From a virus, in the IMG/VR virus record IMGVR_UViG_3300037587_000151, positions 1 to 37,381 of that record: DNA of 37,381 nucleotides; one strand, 5' to 3'. A program made the position numbers and the translations under genes. Positions 3,982-25,405 of this stretch are shown here, one piece after another. The notes beneath the pieces are model-generated. The model saw only the letters and a program-made list of their open reading frames with translations, was not told where the DNA came from and ran no database searches. Numbering within the stretch: position 1 is the stretch's first letter; each line of letters starts with the position of its first letter.

Positions 3982-4314
3982 ATGAAACGTCTACTTCTTC
4001 TGGCGGCTCTGCTGGCCAGCTCAACTACTGTGACGGCAGCAGGCGGGAACACTGTCTGCTCCAACTTCATCCGAATGGCTTATGAAACCAAAGATGCAGC
4101 CGCCACTGTTGAAAGGGCATCCCACCCTGTCGTGTGGCGAACTGTGGTGAGGGTTCATGGCTCTGTTCCTCCCGCCTTGAGGACAGACTATGCCTTCGCT
4201 TACAGCTACAACATGTTGAGCTATTGCAAAACCAACCCCAACAATGGCACATGGGAGGCCAGTGAATATGCATTAGACGAAGCGAACAAAGAGGTGTTTA
4301 ATTATGAAATGTAA
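3982..4314 (+). CDS. Secreted or periplasmic small protein
   Basis: The 110-residue product begins with a Sec signal peptide: MKR, a leucine/alanine core, then a likely signal peptidase I site near TVTAAGG (after about residue 20). The mature part has two cysteines (in NTVCSNF and SYCKTN) that could form a disulfide in the periplasm. It overlaps the pilin-like gene by 11 nt, suggesting co-translation. No family is recognised; a role at the envelope or in superinfection exclusion is inference from neighbours. Confidence 0.7.
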
Positions 4315-4471: not shown

Positions 4472-5356
4472 ATGCAAAACCCAGCACGTACTATTAAACA
4501 GATCGCCATCGCCGCCATTGTTGGCGTCACAACTCTCGCTATCGGCCTCAACTCCTATACCACCGTTAAGGTTGGTGATGAGAAGGTTGGCGCTGTCTTC
4601 GGTAAGGTTAACCCACAGGAACTGAAATCCGGCTTTCACATCGTCAACCCTCTGGCTGATTTTGAGGTTTACGATGTTCAAGAGGTTAGTTACTCTTGGG
4701 ATAACATGCCCATCCCCTCTCAGGACAAGCTGCGTACCAGCATGGACGTCACGGTGATCGGTAAGTTTACCCCCGGCTCCACCGCCAATGTCCGTAAGCA
4801 GTTCGGCTCTGCCAAGGGTTACATCAACAACCAGTTATTCCCTCGTGTACCCTCGATTATGGTGGATGTTGGTAAGGCTATAGCTGTTGAAAGCTCTGAC
4901 TTCTACAATGAAACCACTATCGAGAAGATGCGGCTTGAGGGCATCAACCGGTTGAACGACGCCCTCACAGGCTACACAGTGACGGATATCCTCATCAAGG
5001 ACATCAACCTACCGCCTACCATTGTAGCGGCTGTTAAAGCGGCTGTGACGGAGCAGGAGAAGGTAGTTAAGCAACAGTCTGCCCTTGAGATTGAGAAGTT
5101 GAAGGCTGCAAAGCTGACAGCTATCGCTAAAGCTGCTGACGACTCTGCCTCTTTTAACGCCTCTGCTGTAAAGAAGGCTGCTGATGCTGAATTGTATCGT
5201 ATCACGAAGGTGGCTGAAGGTAACAAGGCTCTGGCACGTAGTGTCACACCTGCCCTCATCAAGCTGAAAGAAGCTGAAGCCAAGCTACTTTGGAACGGTG
5301 TTATGCCCCAGACAATGCTGGGTGATGGCACGAACGTGTTGATGAATATGAAATAA
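4472..5356 (+). CDS. SPFH/band-7 (prohibitin/stomatin-like) membrane protein
   Basis: The 294-residue product has an N-terminal hydrophobic anchor (about residues 9-27), then an SPFH/band-7 domain with the typical opening VKVGDEKVGAVFGKV, the GFHIVNPLADFEVYDV segment, and LNDALTGYTVTDILIKDINLPPTI near its end. A long Ala/Lys/Glu helix follows (about 190-270), the coiled coil by which these proteins form ring-like membrane assemblies. Bacterial members modulate FtsH and other membrane proteases or organise membrane domains. AAGGA precedes the ATG. In this phage it could protect or target membrane proteins, or act in exclusion; that is inference. Confidence 0.85.
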   Translation: MQNPARTIKQIAIAAIVGVTTLAIGLNSYTTVKVGDEKVGAVFGKVNPQELKSGFHIVNPLADFEVYDVQEVSYSWDNMPIPSQDKLRTSMDVTVIGKFTPGSTANVRKQFGSAKGYINNQLFPRVPSIMVDVGKAIAVESSDFYNETTIEKMRLEGINRLNDALTGYTVTDILIKDINLPPTIVAAVKAAVTEQEKVVKQQSALEIEKLKAAKLTAIAKAADDSASFNASAVKKAADAELYRITKVAEGNKALARSVTPALIKLKEAEAKLLWNGVMPQTMLGDGTNVLMNMK

Positions 5357-6025: not shown

Positions 6026-6862
6026 ATGTCTGTAGATTTTGATGTTCATTACACCACTACAAGTGGAAGCCAGGAGGTTGACTACAAACACGATGCCCCT
6101 TGCTTCGGTATGTTGTGTGAGTACAACGACATGGACAATGTAGTCCGAACGAATAAGGTTGTCTTCCATGCTCGTAGGTGGAGCGCAACCCGTGATTGGA
6201 AGGTATGGGCACGTTTCCTTGAAAGCCTCCCTTTCATCCAGGATTCGTTGTCGGAGCCAATCGTCTATGAGCGTTCGAATGACAATCAAGAGGTGCATGT
6301 CCGTTGTGACATCCCCGCTGATCGTATGTTGAATGTCCTCTCGTTGTTCCGTGTACCTTACACCCATAGACAGGCCATCAGAGCTTTTGTTGTGATGACG
6401 GATGCAGATGTTGAGCCTAAGGTGGCAGCTACGATTGCCTTGGGTGTGATTGGACACCGAATAGACGGCATCGCTTTCTGTGACAGCTATGACCCCGAGC
6501 ACAGCATTGTCAATCGTATGGAGGTGGGTATGCTTGATGCCATCTCTCTGCACAATGTATTGTTTGGCAGTGATTGGGCATCTGTATACAACGGTGAGCA
6601 GGAGTTATACTCAGAGTCTCTCACTTATCGCCGTGGTGAGCAGGGTGACGACAATTACATCATGGGCTGGACACAACCTCACGGGGGTGTTGACAGCTCT
6701 GCTGATTCCATGTGTCACACCATGATTAGGGAACAGTTCCCTGAGCTGTGGGATAGAGTGAGACGTGGCACGGGCTCCCTTCGTGGTTCGGAACGCCAGA
6801 TGGATATTAACATGTTGGTTAAAGCGGCTGAATGGTTCGAAAACAAGCTCAAGGAGGCTTGA
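6026..6862 (+). CDS. Hypothetical protein, first gene of the amidoligase operon
   Basis: I do not recognise this 278-residue protein. AAGAGGAC precedes the ATG. It is acidic and soluble-looking, with no signal peptide. Its stop lies 1 nt before the first amidoligase gene, so they share a message. It may be a substrate or an accessory subunit of the amide-ligation pathway, which is inference from position only. Confidence 0.7.
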   Translation: MSVDFDVHYTTTSGSQEVDYKHDAPCFGMLCEYNDMDNVVRTNKVVFHARRWSATRDWKVWARFLESLPFIQDSLSEPIVYERSNDNQEVHVRCDIPADRMLNVLSLFRVPYTHRQAIRAFVVMTDADVEPKVAATIALGVIGHRIDGIAFCDSYDPEHSIVNRMEVGMLDAISLHNVLFGSDWASVYNGEQELYSESLTYRRGEQGDDNYIMGWTQPHGGVDSSADSMCHTMIREQFPELWDRVRRGTGSLRGSERQMDINMLVKAAEWFENKLKEA

Positions 6863-6863
6863 T

Positions 6864-7661
6864 ATGTTTCCAGCATTGGAAAAGATAACTATCGGGGCAG
6901 ACCCTGAGGTGATGGTGAAGACACTCGAAGGTACTATGACGAGTGCCATCGGTAAGGTGGGTGGGAGCAAGGCTCGTCCCATCCCTGTTCGCAAAGGTGC
7001 TCTGCAAGAGGACAACGTGATGGCAGAGTTTAATATCCACCCTGCCTCCACTACCTCTGAGTTTGTTGAGAACATCAACACGGTGTATGCAGAGCTTGAA
7101 GCTGTCCTCATCCCCCAAGGGCTGGAGCCAAGCATCACGAGTAGCCATGAATTTCAAATGGAGTTCCTGCGCTCTCAAGGCCCCAAGGCGATGGAATTCG
7201 GTTGTGGTACAGAATGGGATGGGTGGACTGAGAACATCCTCCAGAAGCCAAATGGCGGCCTCTCAGGGCTACGTACAGCAGGAGGACACGTTCATGTGGG
7301 ATATGATGACCCTTGGGACGATGGTAATTATGCGTTGGCTCGTATGCTCGATATTGTTCTTGGGGTGCCTTCCGTTCTACTTGATTCTGACACTCGTAGA
7401 CGTTCTCTTTATGGCAGTAGCGGGTCTATGCGCCATAAGCCGTATGGCATGGAGTACCGTCCACTATCTAACTTCTGGCTGAAGAGTGATAGCCTGAAGG
7501 CTTGGGTGTTTGATAGAGCCAAGTGGGGTGCTAAGCATTTGGATGAGTTGGAATACATGCTAGGGCAAGTGCCCAGCTCCCTCGTCCAACAAACAATCAA
7601 CAGTGGTGATGAGGCAGCAGCTCGTCATATCGTGGACACATTGAATTTGAAGGTGGCGTGA
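6864..7661 (+). CDS. Phage COOH-NH2 ligase-type amidoligase (phiEco32-like type 2)
   Basis: The 265-residue product matches the phage COOH-NH2 ligase family, which has a glutamine synthetase-like fold and forms amide or peptide bonds using ATP. Visible landmarks are IGADPEVMV (residues about 10-18), the acidic DNVMAEFNIHPAS, GGHVHVGYDDPW with two histidines for metal or nucleotide contacts, and the arginine-rich SMRHKPYGMEYRPLSNFW near residue 200. The ATG at 6864, preceded by AAGGAGG, is preferred over an upstream in-frame start that overlaps the previous gene. It is followed in the operon by a second amidoligase, a glutamine amidotransferase and an ATP-grasp protein. Confidence 0.82.
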   Translation: MFPALEKITIGADPEVMVKTLEGTMTSAIGKVGGSKARPIPVRKGALQEDNVMAEFNIHPASTTSEFVENINTVYAELEAVLIPQGLEPSITSSHEFQMEFLRSQGPKAMEFGCGTEWDGWTENILQKPNGGLSGLRTAGGHVHVGYDDPWDDGNYALARMLDIVLGVPSVLLDSDTRRRSLYGSSGSMRHKPYGMEYRPLSNFWLKSDSLKAWVFDRAKWGAKHLDELEYMLGQVPSSLVQQTINSGDEAAARHIVDTLNLKVA

Positions 7662-8086
7662 TGAGAGAGTTTAAAGTTGGTGATAATGTGAGGGTGGTGA
7701 GTGCATCCTGTGGTTGGGGCTTTATCAAGGCGGGGGATGTTGGGGTAGTGATTGAGGTTCCGTGTAGCTATGGAGAACTTCAGGTGGATTTCCCCAATCA
7801 GGGCCGTTGGCGTGGGGTAGAAAAGGACTTTGTATTAGAAGCCCCTTACCCCAACCCACCCCATAAACATGCTGAGGTGATTAAAGCGTGGGCTGATGGG
7901 GCTGAGATTGAGGCTCACAACAGCCTCGGGTGGCATCCCTTAACCTCACCATACCCAGAGTGGAGGGGGGCGATTTCTTATCGCATCAAACCCGCCTCAC
8001 CCTCCCCTGCTGAAAAGGAGCGTGACGAGATAAAAGCCGAGATGGAAAAGCTCACTAAGCGTCTGGAAGCGTTGGAGGTGAAGTGA
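7661..8086 (+). CDS. Small protein with N-terminal SH3/KOW-like domain and C-terminal coiled coil
   Basis: The 141-residue product begins with an SH3-like beta barrel (FKVGDNVRVV ... GDVGVVIEV ... VDFPNQGRW). A second module (HKHAEVIKAWADGAEIE ... ISYRIKP) is seen in many phage proteins of unknown function, and a Lys/Glu coiled coil ends the chain. The ATG overlaps the preceding stop (TGATG). The SH3-like start resembles the repeats at the end of the ATP-grasp protein of this operon, suggesting a shared binding partner. Confidence 0.65.
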   Translation: MREFKVGDNVRVVSASCGWGFIKAGDVGVVIEVPCSYGELQVDFPNQGRWRGVEKDFVLEAPYPNPPHKHAEVIKAWADGAEIEAHNSLGWHPLTSPYPEWRGAISYRIKPASPSPAEKERDEIKAEMEKLTKRLEALEVK

Positions 8087-8721
8087 TGGAACGATCCATA
8101 ATGTGTGCAGATGACCTGATGGCGTCATATTGTCACACATATCTGGCTGTAAAGCTGGAGGGATGTGACGCCTTTGATCCGATTTACATCGAGAGTGCTT
8201 CAGACCGCTCCTCTGGCCCAGTTTTGATTGGCGTGAACATGAGAACTGAATCTGGCGTTGAGTTTAAGCCGTTTCATAGTGGAGCGGAAGTGCAATGGGA
8301 TTATCCTGAGCTGGGTATGGTGAATCTTACAGACTTTGCTGTATATCATCGCAGGAATGCTCAACGTCAATGGAAGCGTGGTGTCCGAGAGCATCAAATC
8401 ACCAGTGCTATTGTTGGAAACCACATGAGGCGCAGAAGAGGACGGTCTTCCTTCAGCTTCACCTCTCGCAATCACATCCTAGCCTTGTTCAATCCGACGT
8501 TTGAGCCGCTGGAAGCGTGTATTCAGCACGTATTAGCTGGCCGTGGGTATTCACAGGCTTTTGATCGGGATTGGGCTATCATGGCCTACCCTGAGATTAA
8601 GCACCCCACGGTTGTTTATAAAGAATCGGTTGTCGGTGTTGTGAAAGAGGGAGAGTGCGTTCTTCATGAGAGGGCGTCCCACTTAGAGTCTACACTGGCA
8701 ACAATACTGGGAGGGGCTTGA
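8086..8721 (+). CDS. Hypothetical protein between two amidoligases
   Basis: I do not recognise this 211-residue protein. Its start overlaps the previous stop (GTGATGG; a GTG start 3 nt earlier is possible). A basic stretch RRRRGRSS lies near residue 115. No catalytic motif is obvious. Its fixed place between two amide-ligase genes suggests a role in the same pathway, by inference. Confidence 0.65.
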   Translation: MERSIMCADDLMASYCHTYLAVKLEGCDAFDPIYIESASDRSSGPVLIGVNMRTESGVEFKPFHSGAEVQWDYPELGMVNLTDFAVYHRRNAQRQWKRGVREHQITSAIVGNHMRRRRGRSSFSFTSRNHILALFNPTFEPLEACIQHVLAGRGYSQAFDRDWAIMAYPEIKHPTVVYKESVVGVVKEGECVLHERASHLESTLATILGGA

Positions 8722-8722
8722 G

Positions 8723-10018
8723 ATGCCTACCATTGGTGAAGACTTAGGCCACGGACAGGGAAGTATAACCTGGGATTTACACCCATCTGTGGTTGGATGC
8801 AACGGTGTAGGGATTGAGGTTGAGCTGGAGGGCATAGGCAACCTCAATCCCCCAACACCCAGTGGGTGGAGGCTTGTGCCTGACGGCTCTCTGCGTAATG
8901 GCGGAGTTGAATACGTGTTCGATGGTCCCACAGGCGGGGCTGAGTTTTACAATCGCATGATGCGGTTTGGGGAGAGTGTTGAGGGGTTGTCCTCCCCACC
9001 ACTATGCTCTGAACGTACCAGTGTCCATGTCCACATTGATGTTCGTCATCTAGAATATCCCCAGGTGTGGAACATGATGGTATTGTACACCATTGTTGAG
9101 CCCTACCTGTTCACTCTATGTGGAGATAGCAGGGAGCACAATATCTACTCTCTATCCTACGAAAAAGGACAGGGACAAATCAGTAGCCTAGCTCGTATGA
9201 GGACGCTACAACAACTCCTGAGGTTGGGGGTGGAGCATAGGCCCAAATACTCCGCCATGAACATTAACGCCCTGCTAGACTTTGGATCTCTTGAGTTCCG
9301 AGGGATGGAAGGCACCTATGACGTACCTCGCATCATCAACTGGACCAACCACCTCCTGTCTCTGTATGAATATGCAAAGCAGTATCGAGGTTCTGTCGAG
9401 GATCTGCCTGCCCTGATGAGTAGGCTGCAGCCTCGGGGCTTCCTTCGTGAGATTTTTGGAGACCTCACTTCTGATGTGATTGAAGCGGATGTGCGAGAGC
9501 GTGTCTATCGTGGTGCTTGGGTGGCTGAGGATGTATTGTTTGGTGGACGTTTGGAAGGTATCCGAGAGGAACTCACTGAAAGTGAGGGTGGGTATGATTT
9601 GCTGGAGGCGTTTGGTGTGTCTCAACAAGCAGAGCCCACGAGTATAGCTACGAACTATTCTGGTTCAGGAGCCCGCTTCATGCGTTCCACAGTCGGTCAG
9701 TATGCACAACCAGCTCCAGCGCCCGGAGGTCGTATGTACAGCTATATGACTACCACGGAAAGAGAAGAAATACCTCCAGCCCCACCGCCCCCCCAATCTG
9801 AGGCTAGGGTGAGGTTGAGTGGTGCAGCCCGAGACTACATGAACAGCCATCATCCGAGAATCCGGGTTAATCCAGCCGATTCAAGTATTGGCTACCGTCA
9901 AGCCGTGAGGGTGCTCCAAGCAGCCTTCGGTGATGACACTAATATTAATGTTGGCCCACACGGTATAGGCCGGTTGGGTGAAATCTTTTCAGAGACGTTA
10001 GAAACGTCAGGAGGCTAG
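8723..10018 (+). CDS. Amidoligase-family protein (second COOH-NH2 ligase) with extended C-terminus
   Basis: The 431-residue product carries amidoligase landmarks: GIEVELEGI (about residues 29-37) as the first acidic motif, PDGSLRNGGVEYVF, SVHVHIDVRHL with paired histidines, and SAMNINALLDFGSLEFRGM near residue 185. This is the glutamine synthetase-like COOH-NH2 ligase superfamily. The last 120 residues are a proline-rich linker (PPAPPPPQ) and a small helical domain not needed for the core. It starts 1 nt after the preceding stop. Divergence from the first amidoligase suggests a different substrate; substrates cannot be read from the sequence. Confidence 0.78.
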   Translation: MPTIGEDLGHGQGSITWDLHPSVVGCNGVGIEVELEGIGNLNPPTPSGWRLVPDGSLRNGGVEYVFDGPTGGAEFYNRMMRFGESVEGLSSPPLCSERTSVHVHIDVRHLEYPQVWNMMVLYTIVEPYLFTLCGDSREHNIYSLSYEKGQGQISSLARMRTLQQLLRLGVEHRPKYSAMNINALLDFGSLEFRGMEGTYDVPRIINWTNHLLSLYEYAKQYRGSVEDLPALMSRLQPRGFLREIFGDLTSDVIEADVRERVYRGAWVAEDVLFGGRLEGIREELTESEGGYDLLEAFGVSQQAEPTSIATNYSGSGARFMRSTVGQYAQPAPAPGGRMYSYMTTTEREEIPPAPPPPQSEARVRLSGAARDYMNSHHPRIRVNPADSSIGYRQAVRVLQAAFGDDTNINVGPHGIGRLGEIFSETLETSGG

Positions 10019-10022
10019 TAAT

Positions 10023-11162
10023 CTGTGCGGCTTAGTCGGGATTTTCGGGTCAGGCATCTCCCTCCCAGATGTCAAAGTGTTGAAACAACTAATCTACGTT
10101 GATAGCTTACGTGGTCACCACTCAACAGGCTTGGCTGCTGTTGGGTTTGATGGGAGTATTGAAAGCTTTAAGAAGGCAGTTGATGGCCCTGATTTCCTCC
10201 AGTTGGATAAGACTGAGGCGATATTAGACAACGGTATTATGACTGCTGTCATGTTTGCCCACAACCGATATGCCACTAAGGGTGGTGTAAGTACTAAGAC
10301 GGCACACCCCTTCACTCGTGGTGACATCACATTGTGCCACAATGGCACACTCACCAGTCAGTATTACATGCCTGCCGGAGCAACGTTTGCTGTAGACTCT
10401 GAGTGTATTGCCAATGCCTTCAATGTGGACGGGGCAGAGAAAACAATCCCCACACTCCGTGGAGCCTTTGCTCTCACTTGGTATGATGAGAGTAAGAAGA
10501 CCTTCAACCTCGTCCGTAACGATGAACGAACCCTGTGCTTCGCCAACCACAAGGGCCGTAAGGTGACATATTATGCCTCTGAGCGGAAGATGTTGGAGAT
10601 GGTGTTAGACCGTAACAGCATCACTGATGTCGATTACATCGAACTGGCTCCTGGTAAGTTGGTTACCATCGCTCTTGAAAAGGGCTCCATCTCTCTTCCC
10701 GTGGTGAGAGACATCACTGTCCAGGGCTCTGAGTGGGGCTACGATAATGGTGGATACGGTGGCTACCACCAAGGCGGGAGTGGTCAGCGAAAGAGCACCC
10801 TCAAGGCCTCGAAGAAAGTTGTAACCCTGCCAGCCCCATTAGAGAAGTGGGGGTTTAAGCCGGGAGAGAAAGTTGAGTTTTACTCTGATGGGGTGGTGCC
10901 TTACAGCTCTTCAGCTAAGACTGGAATAATGCACGGCATTGTCACAGAGGGCGAATGCCTTGATATACGGTCTTACCAAGCAGATATTGATGCCCTTGCT
11001 GGGTTCTACACAGGAACAATCTCCTGTGGAACAGACACTGGCGAACTGAAATACCTGGTTCTCACCAATGTCAAACTCTGCGATGTAATTGAGGGTGACG
11101 TAAACAATGCAGGACGGGAAGCTGAGGTTGAGGCTCTCTCTGAAAAAAAGCACCAAGCGTAG
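10023..11162 (+). CDS. Class II glutamine amidotransferase (Ntn hydrolase), probable CTG start
   Basis: The 379-residue protein has a GAT-II glutaminase domain, which releases ammonia from glutamine for a partner ligase. Visible are the N-terminal CGLVGIFG, RGHHSTGLA, HNRYATKGG, AHPF and CHNGTLT, and DSECIANAF. The nucleophile of this family is the cysteine exposed after Met removal. The frame reads CTG-TGC at 10023-10028, with AGGAGG at 10008-10013, and has no ATG, GTG or TTG that would place Cys at position 2. The first conventional start (GTG 10077) would delete the nucleophile. A Gly/Tyr-rich linker (about 235-255) leads to a C-terminal domain of unknown role. Confidence 0.85.
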   Translation: MCGLVGIFGSGISLPDVKVLKQLIYVDSLRGHHSTGLAAVGFDGSIESFKKAVDGPDFLQLDKTEAILDNGIMTAVMFAHNRYATKGGVSTKTAHPFTRGDITLCHNGTLTSQYYMPAGATFAVDSECIANAFNVDGAEKTIPTLRGAFALTWYDESKKTFNLVRNDERTLCFANHKGRKVTYYASERKMLEMVLDRNSITDVDYIELAPGKLVTIALEKGSISLPVVRDITVQGSEWGYDNGGYGGYHQGGSGQRKSTLKASKKVVTLPAPLEKWGFKPGEKVEFYSDGVVPYSSSAKTGIMHGIVTEGECLDIRSYQADIDALAGFYTGTISCGTDTGELKYLVLTNVKLCDVIEGDVNNAGREAEVEALSEKKHQA

Positions 11163-11188
11163 TGTCCCAGGAAGGGCTCCTTGGACCG

Positions 11189-11395
11189 ATGAATGCAATC
11201 ATCTCGAAGCCCCAGTTTGTAAGAGTGGTGGCCTCTGGATGCGTACACTGCGCTTCTTTTATAGAACCATCAGAACACAAAGACATCACATGGATGGATG
11301 ACGAGCACAACATACCTAGGCCGGTGTGTGTGTCTTGCTCTGCCATGTCCGCTGCATCAATCGAACTAATGAAACGTCAATGGGGAACCATCTAA
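11189..11395 (+). CDS. Small zinc-finger-like protein
   Basis: The 68-residue product has two CxxC pairs, CVHC and CVSC, about 30 residues apart, a likely zinc-binding knuckle. I chose the ATG at 11189; an overlapping GTG at 11162 would add nine residues. It sits between the amidotransferase and the ATP-grasp gene, whose ATG overlaps its stop (TAATG). Function unknown; it may be an adaptor in the pathway. Confidence 0.6.
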   Translation: MNAIISKPQFVRVVASGCVHCASFIEPSEHKDITWMDDEHNIPRPVCVSCSAMSAASIELMKRQWGTI

Positions 11396-13251
11396 TGGCC
11401 ACTTTTATCCTGCCTTACCGTGCTGCATCTGCATCTGCCCGTGCTCTTTCTGAAGCCCTGGGCTGTCGTCGTATGAGGGTTGACGGCTTAACCACCTCTG
11501 ATGGGCGGAGCCTCACCATCATCAATTGGGGTAACACCCGTACAGACCTGTCTCGATTCTCTGAGGCTAATGTCTTGAATCGTGAGATTCGACCTGCCAG
11601 TAATAAGCTGGCGTTTTTCCAGAACATTGAGGCGTGGAATATTCTGAACACTGGTGATGGCATCAACTACCCTCCCTTCACCACAAGCAACGCTGTGGCC
11701 CAACAGTGGCTGAACGATGGTAAGAGTGTTGTCTGTCGTCATGTCCTGGCTGGCCACTCTGGTGAAGGCATCGAACTCATCATGCCCCCTAGTGGCGAGG
11801 ATGATGAAGTACCCACTGTACCGTCTGCCCCTCTATACACCATGTACGTCCGTAAGCGTGACGAGTATCGTGTTCATGTGGTGGGAGGTACTGTGACGGA
11901 TGTGCAGCGCAAGGCCCGGAATACAGAGGTTGGGGATGATGATGTCAACTGGCAGATTCGTAACCACGGCAATGGCTTCAACTTTGTCCGTGGTGGTGTC
12001 AATCCTGATGCCTCTGTCCTTGAGCAAGCAAAGCTCACTGTCCAAGCTCTGGGACTCACCTTCGGTGCTGTTGATATTGTGTGGAACAACCGTGATTCCA
12101 AGGCAACTGTTCTGGAAGTGAATACAGCTTGTGGCTTGGAGGGCACCACCCTTGAGCGTTACACTGCTGCCTTCTCAGCAATGGTGTTGGGATCAACTCC
12201 TGCACAGTGGGAACCAACTATGGATGTAGTGGCAGAGGCCACTCCTATTCCTGTAGCCCCTTCTGTGGTCCCTGCTGAGCCATTCTCTGTAGGTACACGT
12301 ATTGTACGGAACGATGGTAATACGTGGTCTACAGGCTCTTCTGTAGCTGTTGTAAGAGAGGTTAGATATAACGAGGGCGGAGACTCACGATTGGATCGCA
12401 TCTACATCGTAGGGGGCTCTTACTCTTCCAGAAGCAATGTCACCTTAGCTGATACCTCGCCTACCCCTGTAGCACCCCCCGTAGAGAACGTTGGTGGGTT
12501 TGTTGTTGGACAACGGGTACGGGTTCGTCCACGCAGCTCTGTCCAAAATCGAGGCGCCGGTCCTGGGTATTTTCCTCATATGGAGGGCAATGAAGAGGGT
12601 ATGGTGCGTGGCCTGGATACTAACAACGGCTGGTTGACGGTTGGAGAGTGGTCTTATCTCCCTGAGTGGTTGGAAGATGCTACCGAAGTGGCTGGTTTTA
12701 CTGCCCCAACACAACCCACACCCCTTACTCGTGTGGAAGTGGGGCAGCGTGTTCGTGTACTGCCCCGTAGTCAGCATGGACCACACCAGGGACATGCTGG
12801 CTGGGTAAACCCCACAGCAGATATGATTGGCCAAGAGTTCACTGTTATAGAGTTGTGCGGTGAAGCTGCACGGCATGAGGGCTGGGGATATGACCCCTCG
12901 TGGCTGGAGCTGGTGGAAGAAGATCATAGCTACACCCCTGTTGCTACTCCTGTAGCTTCCCCTGAACTCTCAGTCCCTCCAATCCCTGTTACCCCTGCGG
13001 TTGCTCCTGCCGCTCGAAGCCTATCCACTTATGAGCGTGTCCAAGCTGAGGTGGATAGGATTGTTGAGGAGGCAGAGGGAGGGTTTAGCAACTATACTGT
13101 CCGTATCCCACGGATTGTAGAAGGGGCTACTCGTCGCCATGGCAGGGCCTTCACACTCTCTGCCACCAACATCACTATGATCAACGAACAAGAGTCTGTA
13201 ACTGTCTCTGTACAAATCAATCGTGCTGAAACACGAGAGGTGACCGTTTAA
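11395..13251 (+). CDS. ATP-grasp ligase with C-terminal SH3-like repeats
   Basis: This 618-residue protein begins with an ATP-grasp domain (about 1-290). The nucleotide-binding segment VVCRHVLAGHSGEGIEL, the core strand YVRKRDEYRVHVVGG, NGFNFVR, and the metal-binding pair FGAVDIVW ... VLEVNTACGLEG are all visible. ATP-grasp enzymes of the RimK type join a carboxylate to an amine through an acyl-phosphate. Pro/Val-rich linkers then separate three beta-barrel repeats beginning VGTRIVR, VGQRVRVRPRS and VGQRVRVLPRS, followed by a C-terminal domain. Fusion to SH3-like repeats is unusual and suggests tethering to a protein or cell wall partner. The ATG at 11395 overlaps the previous stop. Confidence 0.82.
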   Translation: MATFILPYRAASASARALSEALGCRRMRVDGLTTSDGRSLTIINWGNTRTDLSRFSEANVLNREIRPASNKLAFFQNIEAWNILNTGDGINYPPFTTSNAVAQQWLNDGKSVVCRHVLAGHSGEGIELIMPPSGEDDEVPTVPSAPLYTMYVRKRDEYRVHVVGGTVTDVQRKARNTEVGDDDVNWQIRNHGNGFNFVRGGVNPDASVLEQAKLTVQALGLTFGAVDIVWNNRDSKATVLEVNTACGLEGTTLERYTAAFSAMVLGSTPAQWEPTMDVVAEATPIPVAPSVVPAEPFSVGTRIVRNDGNTWSTGSSVAVVREVRYNEGGDSRLDRIYIVGGSYSSRSNVTLADTSPTPVAPPVENVGGFVVGQRVRVRPRSSVQNRGAGPGYFPHMEGNEEGMVRGLDTNNGWLTVGEWSYLPEWLEDATEVAGFTAPTQPTPLTRVEVGQRVRVLPRSQHGPHQGHAGWVNPTADMIGQEFTVIELCGEAARHEGWGYDPSWLELVEEDHSYTPVATPVASPELSVPPIPVTPAVAPAARSLSTYERVQAEVDRIVEEAEGGFSNYTVRIPRIVEGATRRHGRAFTLSATNITMINEQESVTVSVQINRAETREVTV

Positions 13252-13637
13252 TGGATAAGCTTGTCGCAGTGTATGGAACCTTACGTCAAGGTTTTGGTAA
13301 TAACTGCGTACTTGGGGATAGTGAAAAGCTGGGGTTTGATGCCCTGGCTCCTGAGTGGGAGATGTTCTCACTTGGGGGTTTTCCCGGAGTACGTCAAGGT
13401 GACAAGTCTGTATTGGTTGAAGTGTACCGTGTAACTGATGAACGAATCTCTCAGAGTTTGGATTGGCTTGAGGGTTTCCGGGAGCAAGATGCTGACTTCA
13501 ACTTCTATAACAAGGCCACCATCTCCACCAAGTTTGGTGATGCAGAGATGTATATCTTAGAGGGGGCCGAATACGACGGTCATGAGTTGATTGACTGTGG
13601 AGATTGGCATGAGCACATACGTGGTGAAGCCCGGTAA
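13251..13637 (+). CDS. Gamma-glutamylcyclotransferase-like (AIG2/GGCT fold) protein
   Basis: The 128-residue product opens with VAVYGTLRQGFGN, the signature loop of the AIG2-like/GGCT fold. The segment LDWLEGFREQ carries the expected acidic residue. These enzymes release or form gamma-glutamyl linkages by cyclotransfer. ATG overlaps the preceding stop (TTTAATGG). Amidoligases, GAT-II, ATP-grasp and GGCT-like genes have been described together (Iyer and colleagues, 2009) as predicted peptide-modification systems; here it may trim or recycle gamma-linked glutamate. Confidence 0.8.
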   Translation: MDKLVAVYGTLRQGFGNNCVLGDSEKLGFDALAPEWEMFSLGGFPGVRQGDKSVLVEVYRVTDERISQSLDWLEGFREQDADFNFYNKATISTKFGDAEMYILEGAEYDGHELIDCGDWHEHIRGEAR

Positions 13638-13923
13638 GGAGCACATTGTCCGTGTTTACACAGACGAGAAGGGGGGTGGGGCTGACGAGAAGTTTTGTAC
13701 AATTGAGCTGCATATGACCATCCACCACGGCCTGCCCCTTACAGCCCTCAAGGAGATTAGGGATTGGGCTGTGCTTCGGTCTAAGCGGGTTGTGAAAGAC
13801 TACGAATACACTTACCGCACTAAATGTGGTGAGTATTGTGGGTATATATATCAAACTTGGTTCTTTGTAGACAATTATTTGGAGTTCTGCGAAGAGAAGA
13901 AGCCAGTAACATTGGAGGTGTGA
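13609..13923 (+). CDS. Hypothetical small protein
   Basis: This 104-residue protein starts at the ATG at 13609, preceded by GTGGAGA and lying inside the end of the GGCT-like gene. It has four cysteines, three of them in the last third, and a basic middle part. No family is recognised. It is the last gene of the operon before the primase-helicase. Confidence 0.6.
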   Translation: MSTYVVKPGKEHIVRVYTDEKGGGADEKFCTIELHMTIHHGLPLTALKEIRDWAVLRSKRVVKDYEYTYRTKCGEYCGYIYQTWFFVDNYLEFCEEKKPVTLEV

Positions 13924-13930
13924 GAGGAAT

Positions 13931-14905
13931 ATGTCAGGAATCCCGATAGATCCGAGGCTACCGTGTGATGAATGCGGGTCATCGGATGGAATACAGCTAT
14001 TTCAACAAGAGGATGGGAGTGTTGATGCATTTTGTTATGCCTGCCCTGACGGTGGTAGGCCCATCCATCATGACCCTCGTGAGGGTGTGCAGGAGGCCCT
14101 TGTGGAAAAGAAACAATTAAAGAAAGACCCCACACAACAGTTGAAGGAGATAGCCACCTACCCTATCCATGCATTGAAGGATAGGGGCATCCATGAATCT
14201 ACATGTGAATACTTCGGTGTTCGTGTGGCACTGAGCCAAAGCGATCGAACTACTGTGACGCACCACTACTATCCTGACACAAAGGGTGGTGTGGTGTGTG
14301 GCTACGAGGTGAAGAGGGTGGCGGATAAGGCCTTCTCTGCCGTTGGTGACCGGAAGGGAGCTGTTGAACTCTGGGGAACAACCCAAGCTAAGAAGCTTTC
14401 CGCTAAGAAGCTGTTCATTACGGAGGGGAGATGTGATGCAATGGCTCTGTTTCAGGCTATTGTGGAGAATCTACCTAAAAAGTGGAGTCACCTAACCCCG
14501 GCAGTGGTGTCTTTGACACGAGGGGCAGGTGGTGCCTTGAAGGATATCCTCAGTAATCGTGAGTTTGTTGAGAGTTTCAAGGAAGTGGTGTTGGTTTTGG
14601 ATCAAGATGGTCCCGGAATTGATGCCATTCAGAAGATTTTGAAGACATTTCCAACCTTTAAGGTGGCTAAGCTCCCCATGAAGGATGCAAATGACATGCT
14701 CTTAGCTGGCCGAGGTAAGGAACTAGCCGATTTAGTTACATGGAATGCTGTTGTTGAGCGTCAAGGGCAGGTGGTGGATGTCCGAGACTTCATTGAGGAT
14801 GCCCTTGTTCGGCCTGAGATGGGTATTCCTACCCCTTGGCCGAGTGTTACCAAGGCTGTTTACGGGTATCGACCACACACCATTCATATTATTGGGGCAG
14901 CGCCT
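13931..14905 (+). CDS. Primase-helicase (T7 gp4-like), exon 1
   Basis: Exon 1 encodes residues 1-325. A zinc-binding domain has C12-x2-C15 and C35-x2-C38. The TOPRIM primase core has FITEGRCDA (Glu165) and VLDQDGPG (Asp224, Asp226), the metal-binding residues for RNA primer synthesis. The exon ends in the Walker A loop after G-A-A-P; an in-frame TAA at 14906 is the first codon of the intron. Joined to 15728-16435, the protein is 560 residues, close to T7 gp4 at 566. The ATG at 13931 is preceded by GAGAGGAA. It unwinds the fork and primes the lagging strand for the polymerase at 18434. Confidence 0.9.
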
Positions 14906-15727
14906 TAACTTCTAGGGCCTTCAGGTAGTAATGCCTGTCGAAAAACTACGTGAATTGCTGGGAAGCCTAGAACAGGTAATCAGCAGCCAAGCTTGTGTGT
15001 AACATTTTCTGAGTAAATGCTTTAGGGTAGGTGACAGCTCAACAGTGTGTGTAAGGAGAAACCATGACACAAATCGCTATCACCGGATATGAAATGTACC
15101 TAGTCTCATCGGAGGGTGCTGTAACTAACACCAGAACCGGCAGAGTGCTTAAAGCAGAGACAACCTTTTATGGATACGCCAGGATAACAGTATCTTTTGA
15201 AGGGAAGATCAAAAGGTTTAGTGTTCACCGACTGGTGGCTGAACACTTTGTACCCAACCCAGACAATAAGCCTGTAGTTAATCACCTAGATGGTGTTAAA
15301 CTGAATAACAGTGCTTCTAATTTGGAGTGGTGTACTCACTCAGAGAACCATCAACATGCCTACCTCCACGGACTAAGCCGGAAAGGGAGTGAACGCTCTT
15401 CAGCTTTATTGGATGAAGAAGCTGTACACAAAGTCTGCCAAATGTTTTGTGAAGGAATACCTAGAGGCCAGATTCTGGCCGCTGGGATACACCCTGAACT
15501 TAAGAAACATATGGTAGATAACATCCGAAGACGGCGAACATGGAAGCATGTCAGTAAATATTACACATGGGAAGGTTCAACGACTATCCCGAAAGGGAGT
15601 ACCTCAGGAGCCTGAGGGAAGCGCGTAGCACCCCGAGAGGGGTGATGATATAGTCTAGTCTGCATGGGGACATGCAGGAGTTCATAAAAGAACCGGGGGA
15701 GGTTAGCGACCTCCTTTGAATATAACG
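14906..15727 (+). ncRNA. Group I self-splicing intron in the helicase gene
   Basis: The 822-nt insert has group I hallmarks. The last exon base is T14905, and exon GCCT can pair with intron GGGC (14915-14918), including the required U-G at the splice site. A P4-P6-like core (GCTGGGAAGCC ... AATCAGCAGCCAAG) follows at 14956-14991. A P7 segment (GGTTCAACGACTATCCC) is at 15574-15590 and its partner GATATAGTC near 15647. The intron ends in G15727. Removing it restores the Walker A motif GAAP-KIGKS. An endonuclease ORF is inserted between the core halves. Confidence 0.88.
15064..15615 (+). CDS. Intron-encoded HNH homing endonuclease with NUMOD4-like domain
   Basis: The 183-residue protein has an N-terminal NUMOD4-like segment (GYEMYLVSSEGAVTNTRTGR) and an HNH core: VHRLVAEHFVPN, then VVNHLDGVKLNNSASNLEW with CTHSENHQHA. 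The C-terminus is basic and probably helix-turn-helix, for DNA binding. It would cut intron-less alleles of the helicase gene and spread the intron by repair. AAGGAGAAACC precedes the ATG. Its 3' end overlaps the P7 part of the intron core, so coding and ribozyme sequence are read from the same bases. Confidence 0.88.
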   Translation: MTQIAITGYEMYLVSSEGAVTNTRTGRVLKAETTFYGYARITVSFEGKIKRFSVHRLVAEHFVPNPDNKPVVNHLDGVKLNNSASNLEWCTHSENHQHAYLHGLSRKGSERSSALLDEEAVHKVCQMFCEGIPRGQILAAGIHPELKKHMVDNIRRRRTWKHVSKYYTWEGSTTIPKGSTSGA

Positions 15728-22682: not shown

Positions 22683-22824
22683 AGAAATGGTTACAATTAC
22701 TAAAGCCCAGCATGATCATCTGCTGAAGAAGGACGACTGGTTGAGCTGTCTTGAACAGGCTGGTGTTGATAACTGGAGTGGATGGGACTACGCTCAGGAG
22801 ATTAAGGAGGAGGAGTGTGATTAA
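22675..22824 (+). CDS. Small conserved-type phage protein
   Basis: This 49-residue frame starts at the ATG at 22675 inside the preceding gene. Residues such as VTITKAQHDHLLKKDDWL and AGVDNWSGWDYAQEI match a recurring type of small phage protein with no known function. Its end overlaps the start of an HNH endonuclease by 8 nt. Confidence 0.65.
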   Translation: MSEEMVTITKAQHDHLLKKDDWLSCLEQAGVDNWSGWDYAQEIKEEECD

Positions 22825-23314
22825 ACAGAGCGATCTGAGGTGTTTGTTTAAGTACAGGAAGAGGGATGGGGAGCTGGTCAGGCGTATCTCTACCTCACCG
22901 AACGCCCCCAAGGGATCTGTAGCAGGAACTATTAACAAAGTTAATGGGTATAGGTATATACACCTAAATGGGTCTAAAAGGACTGCACACAGGCTTGTTT
23001 GGATCTTCCACCACGGACCTATTGGAAAGGGCCTCCAAGTTGATCATATAAATGGAGTAAGGGGTGACAACCGGATTGAGAACCTCCGGCTAGCCACTCA
23101 AAGTGAGAATACTTGCAACAGTAAGCTCACTTCCAGAAATACCTCGGGATTTAAGGGGGTTTGTTGGGACAAGAAGAGGTGTATGTGGTTCGTGAGGGTC
23201 TCGGTCTTTGGCAAACCTAGGGGTTTTGGGTATTATGAAAATTTAGAGTTGGCAGCACTTGTCGCCTCCGAAGCTCGGGAAAAGTATCACAAGGAGTTTT
23301 GTAATCATGGGTGA
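22817..23314 (+). CDS. HNH homing endonuclease with AP2-type DNA-binding domain
   Basis: The 165-residue product starts at GTG 22817 behind AAGGAGGAGGA. The HNH core is visible as TAHRLVWIFHHGPI, QVDHINGVRGDNRIENLRL and TQSENTCNS. The C-terminal SGFKGVCWDKKRCMWFVRV is an AP2/ERF-like DNA-binding domain. This pairing is typical of free-standing phage homing endonucleases. It is inserted between small genes next to the exonuclease, probably as a mobile intruder. Confidence 0.85.
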   Translation: MIKQSDLRCLFKYRKRDGELVRRISTSPNAPKGSVAGTINKVNGYRYIHLNGSKRTAHRLVWIFHHGPIGKGLQVDHINGVRGDNRIENLRLATQSENTCNSKLTSRNTSGFKGVCWDKKRCMWFVRVSVFGKPRGFGYYENLELAALVASEAREKYHKEFCNHG

Positions 23315-23822
23315 CGAGCCTTGGGATGAGTGTGGTTGGACTAAAGCGAGGTATTTTTCGTTCATAAGGTCTGCTTTGAGAGCAGCCACCATGAGATTCC
23401 CCGCTAAGCAGAAGTACCTGAACAAGGCTTGTAGGCCAGCTCCCGCTAACATGAGAGCTAAGTACGTCTGTGATTGTGAGATATGTGGAGAGGTGGTGGG
23501 CAAAAGTAAAGCTGAAGTTGACCACATCAACCCAGCAGGGAGCTTACGTTCCTATGAGGATTTACCAGGGTTTGTTGAGAGGTTGTTCTGTGGCTTTTCC
23601 AACTTCCAAATACTCTGCCCACCCTGTCATGAGATAAAGACGTTGGCCGATAGAAAGGGCCTCACCTTCGAAGAAGCCACTCAGGAGAAGGAGGTGATAG
23701 CATTTACTAAACTTCCAGTTGTAAAGCAGAAGCGTCTCCTGAAAAGGTTAGATGTGACAGCCGAAGACATGAGTAACCAAGATAAACGCACTAACGCGTA
23801 TCGTAAAACCAGAGGAGAGTAG
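23307..23822 (+). CDS. HNH endonuclease of a type common in T7-like phages
   Basis: The 171-residue protein starts at ATG 23307, overlapping the previous stop by 8 nt. It opens with WDECGWTKARYFSFIRSALR, then a zinc-knuckle HNH: CDCEICGEVV, AEVDHINPAGSL, and ILCPPCHEIKT. This family is usually a resident phage nuclease rather than a homing enzyme; it may act in recombination or host DNA degradation. The next ATG follows immediately. Confidence 0.82.
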   Translation: MGDEPWDECGWTKARYFSFIRSALRAATMRFPAKQKYLNKACRPAPANMRAKYVCDCEICGEVVGKSKAEVDHINPAGSLRSYEDLPGFVERLFCGFSNFQILCPPCHEIKTLADRKGLTFEEATQEKEVIAFTKLPVVKQKRLLKRLDVTAEDMSNQDKRTNAYRKTRGE

Positions 23823-24290
23823 ATGTCTAATTTCCGAGCTGTAGCACAACTAAACGATGCCTTTGGCAATACAGAGGTGGGCTGGGATTGGGAACGACTC
23901 CAACGTCAGTTTCATTTGATTGCAGAGGAGTTTAAGGAGAGTCACGATGCTCTCGAAGCACGAGATAAGAAGGAGGTGGTGGACGGGTGTTGTGATCTGT
24001 TGGTAACTGTGTACGGACTCCTACATCTTGCTGGGGTTGATGCTGATGCGGCTATGCGAAGGGTGTCTGCATCTAACTTCTCGAAGCTGTGTACATCTGC
24101 GGAGGTGGCTGAGAAGACAGTGAAACATTATGCCAACCTAGGAGTTAGTGTGTCCCTCCAAGGTGAGCTACCAAAGGCATACGTGGTTGTCACTGAGGAC
24201 TGTCATGACATCTCTGGAAAATTCTATCCACGAGGGAAGTTCCTGAAGAGTGTTGAGTGGAAAGCACCAAGCTTTGAGGGGTTGCTATGA
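23823..24290 (+). CDS. MazG-like nucleotide pyrophosphohydrolase
   Basis: The 155-residue protein has the MazG-type helical signature: IAEEFKESHDAL (acidic metal ligands, about residues 38-49) followed by KEVVDGCCDLLVTVYGLLHLAG. These all-alpha enzymes hydrolyse NTPs or dNTPs, or lower ppGpp-type signals. The last 50 residues form a short beta domain. Context with a second pyrophosphohydrolase, a thioredoxin-like protein and ribonucleotide reductase supports a role in nucleotide pools. Confidence 0.8.
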   Translation: MSNFRAVAQLNDAFGNTEVGWDWERLQRQFHLIAEEFKESHDALEARDKKEVVDGCCDLLVTVYGLLHLAGVDADAAMRRVSASNFSKLCTSAEVAEKTVKHYANLGVSVSLQGELPKAYVVVTEDCHDISGKFYPRGKFLKSVEWKAPSFEGLL

Positions 24291-24628
24291 GTGAGAAGAC
24301 GCCAGATGGTTTAGATCAACACGCCCCAGGGGCTAAGGTGGATGCAGGGAAGAATCGCCTTTCTCTGGTCTTGGAGGCTTTCTCCCGGTCCTTGTGGGCT
24401 GTTGGTGAGGTTGGTACGTTCGGTGCCAACAAATACACGGACAATGGTTGGCTTGAGGTTGAACATGCCCATGAGCGTTACACAGACGCCATGTACCGGC
24501 ACTTAATGAAGGAGGCTATGGGAGAGGATATTGATCTTGATAGCGAGCTTCTACATGCAGCACACACAGCATGGAATGCTTTAGCCCGTTTAGAACTATT
24601 CCTTCGAGCAGGAGATGAAAATGAATAA
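24287..24628 (+). CDS. dATP/dGTP diphosphohydrolase N-terminal-domain protein
   Basis: The 113-residue product matches the small phage family with an N-terminal dATP/dGTP diphosphohydrolase domain: DQHAPGAKVDAGKNRLSLVL, FGANKYTDNGWLEV, ERYTDAMYRHLMKEA and LLHAAHTAWNALARLEL. Members are helical enzymes or regulators of deoxynucleotide pools. ATG overlaps the preceding stop (ATGA). Confidence 0.8.
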   Translation: MSEKTPDGLDQHAPGAKVDAGKNRLSLVLEAFSRSLWAVGEVGTFGANKYTDNGWLEVEHAHERYTDAMYRHLMKEAMGEDIDLDSELLHAAHTAWNALARLELFLRAGDENE

Positions 24629-24884
24629 GGTGTATCTGTTTACCATCCCATTCAGCAAAGACTGTATGCTCCTCAAAGGAGAGCTTGCCCGAGTTGAGGG
24701 TGGGCTAGAGATTGAGGAAGTGAAGTTTCGAGATGACAACCTAGAGCCTACAGAGTTAGCCCAGAAGTTTGGAGTGAGGGGAGTGCCTACGCTGGTTAAG
24801 GTGAATGAGCATGGTACTGTGACGGAAGCTCTGGCGGGATATAAGTACACTCGTGGAACCTTTGAAAAGTTCCTTGAAGCATGA
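24621..24884 (+). CDS. Thioredoxin/glutaredoxin-like protein with a single active-site cysteine
   Basis: The 87-residue protein has a thioredoxin-like fold: the cis-proline segment FGVRGVPTLVKVN and a closing helix GTFEKFLEA. The usual CxxC is replaced by S-K-D-C, so only one active-site cysteine remains. I chose the ATG at 24621, which sits at proper distance from AGGAG; the ATG at 24615 is too close. It lies near ribonucleotide reductase, for which thioredoxin-like proteins are usual reductants. Confidence 0.75.
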   Translation: MNKVYLFTIPFSKDCMLLKGELARVEGGLEIEEVKFRDDNLEPTELAQKFGVRGVPTLVKVNEHGTVTEALAGYKYTRGTFEKFLEA

Positions 24885-25405
24885 CCACGGTTGCCGTGAC
24901 TAAAGTCACAGGGATGGATTTGGCTCGGAAGGCTTGTGAGGCCACTATGCATGGGCAAACCTCAAGCGTGTCTTTGGGGCTGCTTGCTAAATGTGAACAC
25001 AGTCCTCTCCGTACTCAGCTATATTGGGTGGAGTTTAAGAACATCCCAACCTTTGTCTCTGTCCACTTTGTCCGACACAAGATTGGTGTTGAACACTTTG
25101 TGAAGAGTATGCGGGATGATCTCTACATTGACTCAAGTGTTCCTGTAGACCGTAACACGCCAGTTAACCATTGTATGTTGATCAATGCACAGGCTCTGAT
25201 CCAGATGTGTCGGAAGCGGCTGTGCTACAAGTCACACGTCTCTACTGTGGCAGTGTTCAGGCGATTGGTGAGGCGGTTGGTTGAGGCTGAACCAGAGCTT
25301 AAACCCTACCTCGTTCCAGAGTGTGTTTATCGAAACACGTATTGTCCTGAGCCTAGAGAATGTAGGCCAGGCCTTATTAAGGTGTGTAATGCTTATGCAG
25401 AGTAG
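24881..25405 (+). CDS. ThyX-like protein (divergent flavin-dependent thymidylate synthase family)
   Basis: The 174-residue protein resembles ThyX, which methylates dUMP using FAD and folate. HSPLRTQLYWVEFKNIPTF matches the first strand, and VRHKIGVEHFVKSMRDD aligns with the RHRxxS...S.RY signature in degraded form. LINAQALIQMCRKRL fits the nucleotide-binding helix. The usual Gln/Glu-x-Arg near the C-terminus is not recognisable (HVSTVAVFRR). It may be an active divergent enzyme or a non-catalytic relative. ATG overlaps the preceding stop. Confidence 0.65.
   Translation: MTTVAVTKVTGMDLARKACEATMHGQTSSVSLGLLAKCEHSPLRTQLYWVEFKNIPTFVSVHFVRHKIGVEHFVKSMRDDLYIDSSVPVDRNTPVNHCMLINAQALIQMCRKRLCYKSHVSTVAVFRRLVRRLVEAEPELKPYLVPECVYRNTYCPEPRECRPGLIKVCNAYAE

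Follow-up and report, generated by a model that had tools for sequence, protein, structure and literature searches.

A recurrent amide-ligation cassette of phiEco32/LUZ24/RIO-1-type phages, with local changes, in an IMG/VR virus record

Introduction

A set of ATP-dependent ligases encoded together with a class II glutamine amidotransferase (GATase) and, usually, a gamma-glutamylamine cyclotransferase (GGCT) is already in print for phages of the phiEco32, LUZ24 and RIO-1 types. Duhaime 2017 (PMC5498523) described it in PSA-HP1 as a 'peptidoglycan modification cassette' and named phiEco32, 7-11, PA11, tf, MR299-2, LUZ24, PaP3 and CW02 as carriers, and PMC10580990 reports a proposal of Iyer 2009 that phiEco32 uses it to modify the wall against superinfection. 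Annotated carriers of this cassette include LUZ24, PaP3, tf, phiEco32, ECBP2, RIO-1, CW02, LAh_9 and SE131, and the crAss-like phage cr108_1 has a variant of it. Here we analyse IMG/VR virus record IMGVR_UViG_3300037587_000151, a stretch of 37,381 bases (the window) that spans the region of early and replication genes in a podovirus-type phage, and the amide-ligation operon at positions 6026-13923 within it. This operon is the phiEco32/LUZ24/RIO-1-type cassette with local changes and is not a new system. An earlier reading of the letters without database searches (the sequence-only reading) had cited Iyer 2009, but it missed that this very cassette recurs in phages and had been published as a module.

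Comparison with described cassettes

The operon consists of ten same-strand genes (g1 to g10; Table 1) with junctions of -29 to +7 nucleotides (nt), mostly 1-4 nt, and every reading frame that the sequence-only reading had assigned to a tightly coupled operon is present. A primase/helicase gene starts at 13931, adjoining the end of the cassette and placing it in the replication region, and the window also encodes RtcB, DNA polymerase, exonuclease, MazG, PhoH, ribonucleotide reductase and DNA ligase. No close DNA relatives of the window were found among phage records.

In gene order the operon resembles LUZ24 gp14-gp23, PaP3 orf50-orf41 and tf_17-tf_26, which run from a type 2 COOH-NH2 ligase (LIG2) through a g4-like gene, an Amidoligase_2 protein (AMD), the GATase, a small gene, the ATP-grasp ligase, GGCT and another small gene to the primase/helicase. 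Unlike these phages, the window has g1 where they have a tandem pair of proteins of ~300 amino acids (aa), an extra gene (g3), the zinc ribbon g7 in place of their DUF7195 protein, and an ATP-grasp ligase with a long SH3-like extension. The local changes are g1, g3, a split GATase, an extended ATP-grasp ligase and a CTG start codon. The phiEco32/Kuravirus and Grimontviridae genomes have the same core order and enzymes, and phi32_85 of phiEco32 belongs to phrog_4877, a family matched by g4 (7.3e-6), but these phages have a longer GATase, a separate DUF7195-like gene and extra small genes after the ATP-grasp ligase. SE131, GAP52 and 3H10_20 differ in that GGCT is not annotated in the stretches fetched. 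In the Zobellviridae (RIO-1, CW02 and T4S1-k141_462158, as well as PSA-HP1), the same ligases, GATase and ATP-grasp ligase again lie beside the primase/helicase, which in T4S1-k141_462158, as in the window, is in two pieces with an HNH gene between them; these cassettes differ in having the GATase upstream of LIG2 and, in CW02 and T4S1, a second small GATase.

Table 1 Coordinates of the cassette genes (window positions) and of related features in other loci (locus:positions)
Feature	Coordinates	Strand	Description
g1	6026..6862	+	278 aa; in the slot of the tandem ~300-400 aa pair of LUZ24-/phiEco32-type phages
g2 (LIG2)	6864..7661	+	265 aa COOH-NH2 ligase, glutamine-synthetase/GCS-like amidoligase
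g3	7658..8086	+	142 aa; N-terminal SH3-like domain and second phage domain; accessory
g4	8083..8721	+	212 aa cassette-specific protein; weak Sm/Tudor-like N-terminal barrel
g5 (AMD)	8723..10018	+	431 aa Amidoligase_2; catalytic part ~1-270, Pro-rich linker, C-terminal tail
g6 (GAT)	10023..11162	+	379 aa class II glutamine amidotransferase, CTG start
g7	11162..11395	+	77 aa zinc ribbon, CxxC...CxxC
g8 (GRSP)	11395..13251	+	RimK-type ATP-grasp ligase, residues 1-271, with ~345 aa C-terminal extension of SH3-like repeats
g9 (GGCT)	13251..13637	+	128 aa gamma-glutamylamine cyclotransferase/AIG2-like
g10	13609..13923	+	104 aa; overlaps g9 by 29 nt; directly before primase/helicase; dN/dS 0.18 against sister contig L005
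Second small GATase-type proteins	L004:6285-6968; L034:11363-11995; L035:235-882; L047:5085-5777
~300-400 aa protein pairs	L002:5776-7589; L033:8265-10446; L034:9457-11358; L039:6765-9633

Enzyme classes and active sites

The five enzyme classes named by the sequence-only reading (two amidoligases, a class II amidotransferase, an ATP-grasp ligase and a GGCT) are all borne out by family matches and conserved active-site residues, with motifs that are invariant or near-invariant across phages in alignments of the cassette enzymes. LIG2 scores above the curated cut-off for type 2 COOH-NH2 ligases (PF14395, 6.6e-13, 48.9 bits against a cut-off of 25; phrog_3815, 1.7e-79), and its Glu/His/Arg site is conserved, with D13, E15, E55, H142, H144, R190, E197 and R199 invariant in 20 relatives. 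AMD likewise exceeds the curated cut-off for Amidoligase_2 (PF12224, 3.2e-5, 24.4 bits against 22; phrog_7469, 2.2e-47) and has the conserved ExE, HxH and ExR motifs, with E32, E34, E63, H102, H104, Y176, E191 and R193 invariant; its Pro-rich linker and C-terminal tail are common only to the window and a sister contig (L005). The cyclotransferase g9 matches GGACT (PF06094, 1.5e-15, 58.3 bits against a cut-off of 22.8), carries the conserved YGTLR and LEG motifs and the catalytic Glu, and has Escherichia coli YtfP (1xhs, 2.5e-11) as its nearest solved structure.

The GATase g6 (GATase_6 PF13522, 2.2e-14; phrog_4736, 1.7e-77) has the intact motifs of a class II amidotransferase, namely the N-terminal nucleophile Cys2, RYAT, HNG and Asp, and its nearest solved structure is the glutaminase domain of GlmS (1xff, 1.1e-4). 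It starts at the CTG codon at 10023 ('CTG TGC GGC'); starting from the first ATG, GTG or TTG instead would lose the catalytic Cys. Rare GATase start codons were also seen in L005 (ATT, 11193) and, as annotated, in phiEco32 (ATT, L033:13052), and could mean deliberately low translation; in the 21 other relatives checked, ATG precedes the essential Cys. A second, small GATase-type family (~210-230 aa) lies beside the cassette in Zobellviridae-type and crAss-like phages and was found in 14 loci of the first locus set.

The neighbouring g7 has a phmmer match (3.1e-6) to the last ~65 residues of the GATase at L026:5097-6443 and weaker ones to those of L020 and L021, and the alignment shows CxxC pairs in common between g7 and GATase C-termini. 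Because it matches the C-termini of single-chain GATases and both have the CxxC...CxxC pattern, g7 is assigned, from sequence, as the detached C-terminal zinc ribbon domain of the GATase. The 'zinc-knuckle protein' of the sequence-only reading is this split-off domain. An alternative identity for g7, the DUF7195 protein of LUZ24 and tf, was rejected as no similarity between them was found.

The ATP-grasp ligase g8 (phrog_2599, 1.2e-73) has the core Lys, ExR, Asp and ExN of the RimK type (invariant K71, R115, E157, R159, K173, D227, E241 and N243) and is closest by sequence to RimK, the ribosomal protein S6-glutamate ligase (5zct/4iwx, 4e-9), with further profile matches to alpha-L-glutamate ligases (7qyr/7qys), an ATP-grasp ligase (5ig8) and cyanophycin synthase. 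The likeness to RimK covers the ATP-grasp core and its ExR, Lys and ExN motifs but is remote, with an NCBIfam rimK match of 3.6e-4, far under the cut-off, and suggests a substrate by analogy only. Placement in the R2K clade of ATP-grasp proteins was rejected, with scores of 14.5 against 26.3 bits for PF14243 and 12.6 against 26.2 bits for PF18299. The SH3-like C-terminal extension is common only to the window and L005 and is hence not part of the core.

Judged from their sequences, all five cassette enzymes are intact. The ratio of nonsynonymous to synonymous substitution rates (dN/dS) between the window and L005 is 0.07-0.19 for g2, g4, g5, g6, g9 and g10, indicating purifying selection, and reaches 0.30 for g1 and 0.41-0.44 for g3 and g8, whose alignments are gapped. 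For g7 the value of 0.63 is weak because it comes from only 18 changes.

Distribution of the cassette

Searches by tblastn of 50,697 phage records with g2, g5, the first 271 residues of g8 and the first 226 of g6 gave similar numbers of hits for LIG2 (317), AMD (317), the ATP-grasp ligase (307) and the GATase (323). The breakdowns by organism, in the order g2/g5/g8/g6, were near-identical (Pseudomonas, 121/119/119/121; Escherichia, 93/92/93/92; Vibrio, 22/21/22/22), the four distributions being compared by totals and organism breakdowns, not record by record. All four enzymes occur together, usually contiguously, in 46 of 50 distinct loci selected by LIG2; the remaining four are contigs derived from metagenome-assembled genomes (MAGs), three of them short. 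The g4 family is present in 39 of the 46 four-enzyme loci, almost always between the two amidoligases, and GGCT in 31. The window conforms to this pattern, with the four enzymes in one operon together with a cyclotransferase and a g4-family protein.

Distance matrices of AMD, GAT and GRSP also correlate with one another (rho 0.51-0.61; 0 of 500 permutations). Together with the matching phage distributions and the 46 of 50 loci, this supports the proposal of the sequence-only reading that the enzymes form one pathway. Compared across phages, this set of enzymes recurs in several hundred sequenced genomes, for the most part with its gene order unchanged.

A scan of genome_contigs for bacterial operons with a telling neighbour returned 13 MAG contigs; the majority carry the cassette themselves and probably come from phages, which made the scan uninformative. 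In Bacillus phage 022DV001 (L040:11833-14241), an Amidoligase_2 gene and a cyclotransferase gene lie ~1 kb apart, and the other enzymes are absent from the fetched stretch.

Accessory and neighbouring genes

Two of the partners that the sequence-only reading had left uncharacterised can now be placed: g7, as described above, and g4, which belongs to a conserved cassette family (phrog_11055, 1.2e-18). Its AlphaFold2 (AF2) model is good (predicted local distance difference test, pLDDT, 82), and the best VIA match to solved structures (Z 4.7 over 70 residues) weakly suggests a Sm/Tudor-like barrel, with other folds possible. Foldseek gave no match of the model to the PDB under E 0.06, and the structural matches in BFVD are uncharacterized phage proteins, down to 4.5e-11. 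Structure prediction, which the sequence-only reading had proposed for its unknown genes, was uninformative for g1, whose AF2 model is unusable (pLDDT 37).

We found no Pfam or PHROG match for g1 and no relative in the 50,697 phage records; in the collections searched, neither g1 nor g10 had relatives beyond L005, and a protein scan of viral_contigs for further g4 and g1 relatives returned the sister contig only. Other cassettes encode two proteins of ~300-400 aa upstream of LIG2 or inside the cassette, and in several phages the pair resemble each other. A remote relationship of g1 to the ~300 aa pair of LUZ24 and phiEco32 was considered and rejected, the profile matches being short and weak (probability 41-44%). 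The accessory gene g3 matches phrog_13152 (3.8e-14) and, weakly, SH3_15 (E 0.024), and has relatives in RIO-1 (L037), StenR_269 (L039) and L050.

Beyond the cassette, an insertion of ~822 bases at 14905-15727, with an HNH gene at 15064-15615, splits the primase/helicase gene, which is uninterrupted in L005; Rfam gives a group I intron match at 15398-15677 (34.1 bits, E 8e-7) that lies under the gathering score of 50. Further downstream, 22751-25405 contains two HNH genes, the N-terminal domain of a dATP/dGTP diphosphohydrolase and a partial ThyX-like open reading frame (ORF; 3.5e-4, sub-cut-off), perhaps an interrupted thyX.

Proposed pathway and alternative targets

We favour, with somewhat better than even confidence, a conserved pathway, acting early and in the cytoplasm, by which a peptide-type carboxylate receives amino acids and amide caps. 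The cassette products are probably made early in infection. For the order of steps, the ammonia-using ligase, the acceptor and the benefit, we infer a scheme in which glutamine would yield ammonia through the action of the GATase and its detached zinc ribbon, g7; the sequence-only reading had suggested this ammonia source, and the intact GATase site backs it. Because no synthase domain was recognised in the GATase, this ammonia would have to go to a partner, and one glutamine-synthetase-like amidoligase would use it to cap the carboxylate as an amide; the first choice is AMD because its distances track those of the GATase best (rho 0.61). RimK and alpha-L-glutamate ligases attach amino acids to the carboxylates of peptides or proteins, and LIG2 and the RimK-type ligase g8 would do so on the same peptide-type carboxylate, with g8 glutamate-like by analogy. 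The two ligation steps counted by the sequence-only reading are short by one, since the RimK-type enzyme adds a third ATP-dependent ligation. The cyclotransferase may trim or recycle gamma-glutamyl amines, and g4 could act as a scaffold or substrate adaptor. Rather than DNA, the acceptor is most likely the carboxylate of a peptide or protein; candidates are small peptides, the peptides of wall precursors and the C-termini of host or phage proteins.

Several observations weigh against this pathway. GGCT is missing from 15 of the 46 four-enzyme loci and so either may not be needed or may be encoded beyond the stretch fetched, LIG2 distances correlate weakly with those of AMD, GAT and GRSP (rho 0.10-0.22), and part of the stronger correlation may be shared ancestry, as the permutation test ignores phylogeny. 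The RimK profile match of g8 spans the ATP-grasp core and fixes no substrate. In the literature, we found no assay of any cassette member and no acceptor identified.

RimK adds residues to the C-terminus of ribosomal protein S6, and the RimK-type ligase and the amidoligases could similarly attach a short peptide to the C-terminal end of a protein, whether from host or phage, and cap it, altering host translation or transcription. This is a tentative possibility to which several features point: among solved structures, g8 is nearest to RimK and alpha-L-glutamate ligases, followed by an ATP-grasp peptide ligase and cyanophycin synthase; SH3-like domains occur in g3 and the g8 extension, and a weak Sm/Tudor-like barrel in the g4 model; mass spectrometry of phage SU10 detected homologous GATase, ATP-grasp and YtfP-like proteins, which were listed among its early products (PMC4281155); and Aravind and colleagues (PMC4431377) proposed protein tagging for related ligases. 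However, the g8 extension is confined to the window and its sister, and no candidate acceptor protein conserved across cassettes was found. A specific form, in which a C-terminal peptide-tagging machine extends and amide-caps a host protein early and g4 and the SH3-like modules of g3 and g8 select the target, is unlikely. Editing of the envelope, with stem peptides of peptidoglycan precursors amidated or extended to protect the infected cell from superinfecting phages or their lysins, is somewhat doubtful. It is the published proposal for phiEco32, RIO-1 and PSA-HP1 (PMC5498523; PMC10580990, citing Iyer 2009), and neighbouring genes are consistent with it, including a Band_7/SPFH gene at 4472-5356 (2e-15), with similar genes preceding the cassette in Aeromonas LAh_9 and Proteus 3H10_20, a cell-wall hydrolase gene upstream of it in 3H10_20, and a short protein at 3982-4314 that seems to have a signal peptide and weakly resembles T4 Spackle over nearly the full length (E 0.073, under the Pfam cut-off). 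This neighbour evidence is weak, though, we noticed neither a signal peptide nor a membrane domain in any cassette protein, and only newly made wall could be changed within one infection.

The enzyme set also resembles gamma-glutamyl small-compound pathways of the butirosin type, in which ligases are combined with a cyclotransferase that removes the gamma-glutamyl group, and the tf record notes a BtrG-like domain. The product could then be a soluble gamma-glutamyl or amide metabolite serving as a defence inhibitor, signal or protective peptide, which we consider improbable, as no PADLOC match was found and no transporter or tailoring enzyme was recognised in the cassette. A defence-system origin of the cassette was rejected on the same PADLOC result. 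That the cassette is an auxiliary metabolic set for nitrogen recycling, improving glutamate and ammonia use, as proposed for Phage-ZRK32 (PMC10945688), is very unlikely: three specialised ATP-dependent ligases make a costly recycling route, and in the available text of that report no deletion links the growth effect to these genes. Highly improbable, finally, is hypermodification of DNA giving restriction resistance, a target that the sequence-only reading had entertained. The cassette adjoins replication genes, and the Gordonclarkvirinae, of which phiEco32 and ECBP2 carry it, withstand restriction-modification remarkably well although no modification pathways are known in them (PMC11990801), but the authors of that BASEL study suggest deoxyuracil instead, naming a dCTP deaminase and a nucleotidyltransferase. 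DNA is an unlikely acceptor because that of the cassette-bearing phage tf was cut by five restriction enzymes, RsaI, HpaI, EcoRV, SmaI and HaeIII (PMC3517423), and the window ORFs that were scanned revealed no hydroxymethylase gene or other gene for base modification.

If host-protein tagging were true, it would be a type of host takeover for which we found no demonstration in any phage. About 0.6% of sequenced phage records carry the module, among them phages of E. coli, Pseudomonas aeruginosa and Vibrio and a crAss-like phage, and its core set of LIG2, g4, AMD, the GATase with its zinc ribbon, the ATP-grasp ligase and, usually, GGCT defines the genes with which to find the target.

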